From Acidocella sp. (lineage in GTDB: Bacteria > Pseudomonadota > Alphaproteobacteria > Acetobacterales > Acetobacteraceae), in assembly GCA_026224875.1 (NCBI GenBank), contig JAMFRU010000056.1, positions 1 through 64,000 of the forward strand: a DNA stretch of 64,000 nt, read 5' to 3'. The first letter of the stretch is position 1; every line of letters starts with the position of its first letter. A program made the position numbers and the translations under genes. Below, in pieces: positions 12,316 to 14,388 of the stretch. The notes beneath the pieces were generated by a model. The model saw nothing but the letters and a program-made list of their open reading frames with translations, did no database searches and was not told the DNA's origin.

Positions 12316-14388
12316 ATGGGGGACGCGCACGTGACCGTTGATAATTTTCATCCGATTTATCGTGGCGTAAATTACGTCGGCGACGTCAATGGCTCGTTTG
12401 AAGCGGCCGATTCACTGGCCAGCCTTGAGGGCGATAACATCAATTCAGTCGCCATTACCGCCGATTTCGACATCGACCCGACAAACAACACGGTCGTCGA
12501 TGACGACGTGGCCGGCGGCTATACCGAGACCGATCCGCATATATTGGCCACGATCGAGGAGGCGGAGAGCGACGGGTTGACGGTGATGGTGCGCCCGCTT
12601 ATCGATTTCGTACCGGCGGATTATGACGCGGGCCCTAATCCGAACACCGCCGGCACAGATTATTACGCCACTGAATTCCGTAATTATTATAACCCTGGTG
12701 CCGCCGGCTCCGCCGGGGCGAATGCTTTCTTTGCCAGCTACGATAGCATGATCGTCGACCAGGCGAAGCTGGCCCAGGCCGGCGGCGCTCAGCTGCTCGA
12801 CATCGGCACGGAGATCGATCAGCTCACCGGCCCGGCCTATATCTCCTACTGGGACAAGATCATTACGGATGTGAAGGCGGTTTTTACCGGCAAGCTCACC
12901 TATTCCGCTTTTTGGGACGATAATCAGGGTTATTGGCAATATAATAATGATTTTTCGGCCGAGACCTCTTCGCAATACATCACCGGTGACACCTCAAACC
13001 AAGTCGATTTCTGGAGCCAGCTCGATTATGTTGGCATCGACGAATACGCGCCGCTGTCCGACATCATCCCGAAAAACGCCGCCGGTAATCCGAGCCTGCA
13101 GGACCTCATCAACGCCTGGATCGACAAGCCGGCTGCAGGTTCCCTCACCTATAACGTCACCGGCGGCAAGTCGCTGATCCAGTATTACGAGGGTCTTTCC
13201 GCCGTGATCGGCAAGCCTTTGCTCTTTACCGAAATCGGCTACGCCAATTCAACGGATGCCGCCGAAAATCCGGCCGTGCCCGGTTATGACATCAACGGCA
13301 GTGCGGATGGGGCGACTGCCGATGCGGCGCTCCAGGCTTTGCTGTACCAGGCGTTTTTCGACGCCTGGCAGGAGGACGGCGGTACCGGTGCGAGCAACAT
13401 AGACGGTGTGTTCATCTGGAACTGGGAGCCGAGCGAGAGCGGTAGCCCGTACTCCCTGACCTCTGGTGCTTTGCAGCAGGTCGTTGCAGGCTATGAACAG
13501 GCGGCGATGTGCTATCTGCATGGCACGTGCATCCTCACTGCAAACGGCGAAGTTTTGGTCGAGGGTTTGGCGGCCGGCGATATGGTGGCCACGCGGTTCG
13601 GCGGCATGCGGCGCATCGAATGGATCGGTCGGCAGAGTTTTGCCGGGCGGTTCGTGGCGGGCGACAAGGCGCCGGTCTGCATTCGCGCCGGTGCGCTGGG
13701 GCAGGGGGCGCCGCTGCGCGATCTGTTCGTCTCCCCCGGTCACTCCATGCTGCTGGGCGAGGTTTTGGTTCTGGCGCGTGACCTGGTGAATGGCGTGACC
13801 ATCACGCAAGATGTGCCGCCCGAAACGGTGCATTACGTGCAGCTGGATTTCGGCACGCATGATTGCGTGCTGGCCGAAGGCGTGTGGAGCGAGAGCTTTG
13901 CCGACGGCCCAGGCCTGCGCGGCAGTTTTCACAACGCGGCGGCATTTTTTCGCGCCAACCCGGGTTATGTGGAGCCCCCGCAGGTAGCACTATGCGCCCC
14001 GCGGCCGCTGGAAGGAGCGGTGCTGGAACAGGCTCTGCGCCCCGTTGCGGCGCGCGCGGCGGCGGCTTGCATGCCGGGCGCTTTGGCCGGCTGGCTGGAG
14101 CGGCTGCGGCCGGATGGTGTGCTGGAGGGTTGGGCCATGGACGCGGATCACCCTGCATTACCCGTCCTGCTTGAAGTCTGGCATGGGCAGACCCAACTAG
14201 GTTGTGTGCTGGCCTGCCAGAAGCGGGTTGATCTGCGTGAAGCGGGGCTGGGTTCCGGCAATGCGGGTTTTGTGTTTACCCCCCCGCACGGGCTGGACTT
14301 GTCCGGGCTATCTATACGCCGCGCCGCAGATGGCGCGGTCCTGCCGACCTTGCCCGAGTCTCGCGTGTTACAGACTTTGGCGGCCTGA
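12316..14388 (+). CDS. TIM-barrel glycoside hydrolase (GH113-like) fused to a Hint (Hedgehog/intein, Hint_2-type) domain and a C-terminal beta-sandwich-like domain
   Basis: Residues about 10-390 carry paired putative catalytic Glu motifs (DIGTEIDQL, PLLFTEIGYAN) and FIWNWEP. From Cys399: CYLHGTCILTANGEVLVEGLAAGDMVATRFGGMRRIEWIGR...LFVSPGHSMLLGE. Tail: DGVLEGWAMDADHPALPVLLEVWHG. Confidence 0.8.
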   Translation: MGDAHVTVDNFHPIYRGVNYVGDVNGSFEAADSLASLEGDNINSVAITADFDIDPTNNTVVDDDVAGGYTETDPHILATIEEAESDGLTVMVRPLIDFVPADYDAGPNPNTAGTDYYATEFRNYYNPGAAGSAGANAFFASYDSMIVDQAKLAQAGGAQLLDIGTEIDQLTGPAYISYWDKIITDVKAVFTGKLTYSAFWDDNQGYWQYNNDFSAETSSQYITGDTSNQVDFWSQLDYVGIDEYAPLSDIIPKNAAGNPSLQDLINAWIDKPAAGSLTYNVTGGKSLIQYYEGLSAVIGKPLLFTEIGYANSTDAAENPAVPGYDINGSADGATADAALQALLYQAFFDAWQEDGGTGASNIDGVFIWNWEPSESGSPYSLTSGALQQVVAGYEQAAMCYLHGTCILTANGEVLVEGLAAGDMVATRFGGMRRIEWIGRQSFAGRFVAGDKAPVCIRAGALGQGAPLRDLFVSPGHSMLLGEVLVLARDLVNGVTITQDVPPETVHYVQLDFGTHDCVLAEGVWSESFADGPGLRGSFHNAAAFFRANPGYVEPPQVALCAPRPLEGAVLEQALRPVAARAAAACMPGALAGWLERLRPDGVLEGWAMDADHPALPVLLEVWHGQTQLGCVLACQKRVDLREAGLGSGNAGFVFTPPHGLDLSGLSIRRAADGAVLPTLPESRVLQTLAA

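Follow-up and report, generated by a model that had tools for sequence, protein, structure and literature searches.

A leaderless GH113 protein of Acidocella sp. carries a Hint_2 cassette with a predicted cut at its first cysteine

Introduction

In MafB and CDI-type proteins, Hint domains have the role of release modules. Class 1 inteins are recognised by a C-terminal His-Asn followed by a +1 nucleophile, type A BIL domains likewise by a C-terminal His-Asn, and the Hog domain consists of a Hint domain plus a sterol recognition region. Activation of the acceptor in Hedgehog is brought about by an acidic residue, D303 (PMC9163320). A 2010 review of RTX proteins pointed to nine putative RTX proteins that weakly resemble Hedgehog/intein sequences and suggested that they might autoprocess (PMC3034196); thus, the idea of self-processing is not wholly new. 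The Pfam family Hint_2 (PF13403) is a long-standing annotation to which no function is attached, and published accounts do no more than count it among enriched domains or call it unknown (PMC12487129; PMC11999647). No description of a GH113 passenger on a Hint_2 domain was found in the literature on PF13403, and the exoproteome literature that was checked contained no mention of Hint.

The gene analyzed here lies in a window of 64,000 nucleotides from Acidocella sp. (GenBank assembly GCA_026224875.1, contig JAMFRU010000056.1). Its product belongs to the Hint_2 family by profile, and nothing contradicts this membership. The closest solved structure by sequence and fold is a BIL domain from Clostridium thermocellum (2lwy), with which the window protein has Cys1, the S/TxxH motif, and the Hint fold in common. 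Unlike the BIL domain, the Hint_2 cassette ends in Glu-Ser/Thr instead of His-Asn and is followed by a tail, and its passengers are of leaderless exoprotein types. The window protein accordingly lacks the C-terminal His-Asn of type A BIL domains, as well as the His-Asn and +1 nucleophile of class 1 inteins; Glu-Ser/Thr occupies this position in 56 of 56 family members by a motif-based alignment of block G. With the Hog domain it shares the layout and a predicted single, thioester-based N-terminal cut with no C-terminal cleavage, but it has no match to the Hedgehog profile PF01079, which finds only one of the 56 members (E 0.008), and no recognisable sterol recognition region. The Hedgehog/intein-like RTX proteins of the 2010 review (PMC3034196) are matched by three Rhodobacteraceae-type Hint_2 proteins in which RTX repeats precede the Hint domain, whereas most Acetobacteraceae passengers, including that of the window protein, carry no such repeats. 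The breadth of the cassette, its lost His-Asn end, the cysteine boundary described below, and the exchange of a T1SS-type end for a Hint domain on one passenger seem to be new with respect to the literature consulted.

A GH113 enzyme joined to a Hint domain

Three Pfam matches were found in the window protein: GH113 (residues 29-372), Hint_2 (residues 398-531), and, as a secondary match, GTA_TIM (residues 141-292, E 6e-9). Chance origin of the domain matches is excluded by their E-values and by conservation across genera. The coordinates of the features are collected in Table 1. The GH113 match scores 72 bits against a cut-off of 27, a profile built from eight homologues retrieves solved GH113 mannanases (7dv7, E 4e-25; 3civ, E 4e-23), and the top 15 Foldseek matches of the AlphaFold model are all GH113 structures. 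Glu166 aligns with a glutamate whose place is taken by alanine in a GH113 mannanase (chains 7dvj/7dvz), and Glu306 aligns with the glutamate of the FMEAG motif in 7dv7. Profile, fold, and alignment thus bear out the GH113-like barrel with two catalytic glutamates that had been proposed in a sequence-only reading of this DNA. Judged by its sequence, the window protein belongs to GH113, and its active site is plausible. It shares the barrel fold and both catalytic glutamates with the GH113 beta-mannanases AaManA (3civ/4cd6) and BaMan113A (7dv7), from which it differs in its low identity (~18% in the fold comparison) and in the fusion of its barrel to Hint_2. Beta-mannanase activity is a trait of the family and may extend to the window barrel. 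The part of the barrel encoded at window positions 12736-13191 also matches GTA_TIM, gene transfer agent megatron profiles, and PDB 6tba, and these matches link GH113 with the TIM barrel of the GTA hub protein.

Table 1. Features of the GH113-Hint_2 gene and its product, in window coordinates
Feature	Coordinates	Strand	Details
Whole gene: GH113 passenger, Hint_2, and C-terminal tail	12316..14388	+	690 aa, ATG start, intact ORF
Passenger, residues 1-398	12316..13509	+	Leaderless, without cysteine; predicted released fragment ~42-43 kDa
GH113 TIM barrel, residues 29-372	12400..13431	+	PF22612, E 6e-20
Glu166, predicted acid/base (GTEIDQLTG)	12811..12813	+	Invariant in 8 homologues
Glu306, predicted nucleophile (FTEIGY)	13231..13233	+	Invariant in 8 homologues
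Hint_2 domain, residues 399-531	13510..13908	+	PF13403, E 5e-38
Cys399, Hint Cys1, predicted nucleophile of the N-S acyl shift	13510..13512	+	Cys in 56/56
S473-P-G-H476, S/T-x-x-H motif, block B equivalent	13732..13743	+	S/T 56/56, P 54/56, H 56/56
His515, block F equivalent	13858..13860	+	56/56
Glu526-Ser527, at the intein His-Asn position	13891..13896	+	E 56/56; S or T 56/56
Post-Hint helical segment, residues 532-584	13909..14067	+	Helices 541-547 and 568-583; mean occupancy 50-54/56 rows
Accessory beta-sandwich, ~residues 590-675	14083..14340	+	AlphaFold pLDDT ~90-95; no Pfam match; long-tail subgroup only

Upstream of the ATG, the frame is interrupted by a stop at a distance of 12 codons, and the beginning of the protein is devoid of hydrophobic segments; together, these features rule out a Sec signal peptide, in agreement with the earlier reading. 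Inspected by eye, the two flanking ORFs appear to be of an ordinary metabolic kind (a UbiG-like methyltransferase and an M20-like amidohydrolase), and nothing in the neighbourhood indicates an operon.

The Hint_2 match scores 131 bits against a gathering cut-off of 28.4 and covers positions 1-146 of the 147 in the model. For comparison, Hint_2 sequences from the window genome, other Acetobacteraceae, and Rhodobacteraceae-like genomes were aligned; all 56 match PF13403. Cys399 is the first cysteine of the window protein and opens the Hint domain (AAM-CYLHGT). The proposals that Cys399 sits where an N-S acyl shift would take place and that SPGHS supplies the Hint histidine agree with this alignment, in which Cys1 and the histidine corresponding to H476 are present throughout. 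The residue preceding Cys1, by comparison, varies (P, A, I, L, or V). At the other end of the domain, the intein sequence A-N-G-x-x-x-H-N aligns with A-E-G-x-x-x-E-S in the window protein, an equivalence to block G that is motif-based; because Glu-Ser/Thr stands at the position of His-Asn, Asn cyclisation is unavailable.

Searched against solved structures, the Hint profile finds the BIL domain 2lwy (E 5e-5), and block A of PI-SceI is also matched. The same sequence-only reading had named structure prediction as a check, and AlphaFold returns a Hint fold: the model of Hint plus tail has a mean pLDDT of 93.8 and a pTM of 0.84, with pLDDT 94-98 in the Hint domain. Its best PDB match in Foldseek is again 2lwy (E 3e-5, TM 0.67 by target), followed by BIL2 and several inteins.

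The ~160 residues downstream of the Hint domain, of which the last 159 have no Pfam match, had been overlooked in the earlier reading. A tail follows the Hint domain in all full-length members and contains no recognisable T1SS motif. Residues 532-584 represent the portion common to most of the family; they are less conserved than the Hint domain (mean entropy 2.5-2.7 versus 1.75 bits) and are very different in Rhodobacteraceae members. In many paralogues the tail is only ~50 aa long. Three paralogues (L026, L010, and L021) are 52-54% identical to the window protein over Hint plus tail, and the similarity of the closest paralogues begins at residues 390-397, i.e., within 10 residues of Cys399. 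A beta-sandwich of the GWAxD..P..PV.LEI type is present at the same region in L010, L012, L021, and L026. Another type of long tail, with an RWTDGDA motif, forms the C-terminal third after Hint_2 in two proteins of other Acetobacteraceae (L106 and L107).

One cassette on many cysteine-free passengers

The window genome encodes 24 Hint_2 domains. The 24th copy (L029, G000:C13:73759-73962) comprises the first half of the domain only and may be a broken gene or reflect a fault in the assembly. The passengers in this genome are unrelated to one another, leaderless, and of extracellular type, including AIDA stalks, PATR repeats, cadherin-like domains, and an NF038122 metalloprotease. In the last case (L019:1721-3556, minus strand), the metalloprotease passenger, with its HELSH motif, is leaderless, cysteine-free, and placed before Hint_2. 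The occurrence of the same C-terminal cassette on such varied passengers suggests a common way of export, release, or attachment. The sequence-only reading was therefore right about the fusion of a glycosidase to a Hint domain, but its frame of a single fusion proved too narrow, as two dozen different leaderless, cysteine-free passengers share the cassette within this genome.

Within the genus, 3-37 Hint_2 copies occur in 25 of 25 searched genomes, and at least one was found in 80 of 100 sampled Acetobacteraceae genomes. In a class-wide sample of 289 genomes, 14 have a match at E 0.001 and 10 exceed the family cut-off; the matches fall mainly in Acetobacteraceae and one other family (f23), which its RTX-Hint proteins and reports in the literature lead us to regard as Rhodobacteraceae. 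The earlier remark that Hint_2 proteins are widespread in Alphaproteobacteria thus calls for qualification, as in this sample they are concentrated in Acetobacteraceae and one Rhodobacteraceae-like family. Two short Rhodobacteraceae-type Hint_2 proteins of 362-371 aa (L066 and L067), which are alike though they come from two genera, start with MKTGF[RK]GTFVISWSQTE and have no RTX repeats.

The GH113 passenger itself recurs, at ~50% identity, leaderless, and fused to Hint_2, in four other Acetobacteraceae-type loci (L106, L107, L108, and L109). Of these, L108 comes from Acidisphaera sp. L21; its match to G006, a genome of the same family, is the basis on which the window genome was placed in its family. 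In two Methylococcales MAGs (L104 and L105), the same passenger is found among AIDA-type repeats without Hint, in proteins with a T1SS-like C-terminus (...YYDANGS...GDFQLVA, a motif recognised by eye). These proteins of 1256 aa carry the GH113 domain between AIDA-type and NHL repeats and have zero cysteines. Two more distant members of the GH113 passenger family differ: L076 has a different C-terminus, and L077 has an apparent Sec signal.

Not one cysteine occurs in the 17,775 passenger residues of all 24 Hint_2 proteins of the window genome (protein starts set at the first Met of the frame), whereas 18 other ORFs of the window have 49 cysteines among 8,778 residues (0.56%; Fisher p 3e-24). 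After Cys1, cysteine accounts for 0.79% of the remaining Hint domain and 1.62% of the tail. Passengers are also cysteine-free in 9/9 Rhodobacteraceae-type proteins and in 20/29 from other Acetobacteraceae, where some of the cysteine-bearing exceptions stem from uncertain starts or frames. Cysteine-free sequence has been reported for T1SS-exported RTX lipases and S-layer RTX proteins (PMC3034196). Because the cysteine boundary falls at the predicted cut, it supports different fates of the two halves, and the non-depleted Hint-tail half fits poorly with its co-export with the passenger.

Predicted cleavage at Cys1 and competing readings

With modest confidence, we propose that the window protein is a leaderless GH113 enzyme, exported in the manner of T1SS substrates, whose Hint_2 domain cuts between Met398 and Cys399 as a Hog domain does, freeing the enzyme or handing it over. 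The protein would be synthesized without a Sec signal and exported, probably via a T1SS. Around export, Cys399 would attack the Met398-Cys399 bond in an N-S acyl shift with assistance from His476, and water, a thiol, or some other nucleophile would then resolve the thioester; residues 1-398 would thereby be released from the Hint-tail half or transferred to the nucleophile. The single cut would be Hedgehog (Hog)-like, and splicing would not follow the acyl shift, since the intein C-terminal Asn is missing. This prediction of N-terminal cleavage or transfer instead of splicing is based on the replacement of His-Asn by Glu-Ser/Thr together with the invariant Cys1, S/T-x-x-H, His515, and Glu526. 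Cleavage with its timing and place, export by T1SS, and the nature of the nucleophile are parts that we infer as the best explanation. On sequence evidence, release by autocleavage would be the best-supported mechanism for the window protein, and the findings go no further than being compatible with attachment to a surface nucleophile through a thioester. If active, the cassette would bring as many as 37 proteins in a single genome of this large bacterial family under Hedgehog/intein-type processing, and T1SS substrates, whose C-terminal signals have been described as uncleaved (PMC3034196), would gain a self-removing version. The cassette might also be put to use for generating C-terminal thioesters on exported proteins.

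A closer parallel to Hedgehog would be ligation, in which the C-terminal carboxyl of the passenger is moved to a specific acceptor (a surface glycan, lipid, or hopanoid) and the post-Hint segment acts as the sterol/adduct recognition region. The order of parts is indeed Hog-like, with a variable N-terminus, Hint from Cys1, and a helical segment kept in most members; a residue for Asn cyclisation is lacking; the invariant E526 is a putative equivalent of the acidic Hedgehog D303; and carbohydrate-active and adhesin passengers would benefit from surface anchoring. Against this stand the weaker conservation of the post-Hint segment, its strong divergence in Rhodobacteraceae, and the solitary match to the Hedgehog Hint profile, and we consider ligation rather unlikely. 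Unlikely, too, is its extension to a genome-wide, Hedgehog-like system of Acetobacteraceae and Rhodobacteraceae, in which Hint_2-tail cassettes would cut at Cys1 and hand passenger C-termini to one particular glycan, lipid, or hopanoid that serves as acceptor at the surface, amounting to sortase-like thioester anchoring of dozens of exoproteins on or after export. It is also conceivable, if improbable, that the Hint fold was kept for something other than cleavage, as a structural or recognition module such as an export tag on a functional full-length protein. The uncleaved C-terminal signals described for T1SS would suit such a role, and the variable residue before Cys1 means that there is no strict cleavage-site consensus. 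Against such a role, Cys1, S/TxxH, and H515 have stayed the same in deeply diverged members, and homology to the closest paralogues sets in within 10 residues of Cys399.

Splicing and toxin release are both unlikely, and either is given only a very slight chance. In splicing of the intein or BIL-A kind, the Hint domain would be excised and the GH113 barrel joined to the C-terminal beta-sandwich; the fold and block A do match BIL/intein domains, and the window protein does have a further domain downstream of Hint, but Glu-Ser/Thr replaces His-Asn in every member, and the short tails of many paralogues leave no C-extein for ligation. A Hint domain of polymorphic-toxin type would free a C-terminal toxin, as the release modules of MafB and CDI-type proteins do. 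In the Hint_2 proteins, however, it is the N-terminal side that varies and the C-terminal tail that is common to paralogues; the tail matches no toxin family, and both neighbours are ordinary ORFs.

Probable export route of the passengers

T1SS export of the window protein is likely, judging from the missing Sec signal, the T1SS-like end of the Hint-less homologues L104 and L105, and the RTX repeats of three Rhodobacteraceae-type Hint_2 proteins. RTX repeats are a hallmark of this route (PMC3034196) but are not present in every T1SS substrate. An ABC transporter of the PrtD type is absent at E 1e-100 from 25/25 genomes of the genus; this is not a refutation, as the genus has an HlyB/LssB-like ABC plus HlyD locus instead. 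No T1SS was found in the window assembly. Synteny with relatives (a glutamine-synthetase-like gene, an alcohol dehydrogenase-like gene, and a 420-aa ORF) reaches the end of contig C83, which stops where that synteny places the locus; therefore, a gap in the assembly probably accounts for the absence.

When the comparison is restricted to Acetobacteraceae genomes of 95.5% completeness or more, the T1SS adaptor HlyD occurs in 56/56 of those that have Hint_2 and in 13/16 of those that lack it (Fisher p 0.009, kinship ignored). This co-occurrence is weak, because T1SS is common in the family anyway (94 of 100 Acetobacteraceae genomes) and the statistic ignores phylogeny. Operon linkage between Hint_2 and T1SS genes was also considered and rejected: there are no such operons, and in the nearest case (G164) the genes are separated by several others. 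The T1SS locus of the genus (L117-L122, e.g., L119:6342-17051) encodes the HlyB/LssB-like ABC protein, HlyD, a Sel1-repeat protein, a GT2/GT4 fusion, an unknown protein, and a GT4 glycosyltransferase, and may both export and glycosylate the Ser/Thr/Gly-rich Hint_2 passengers.
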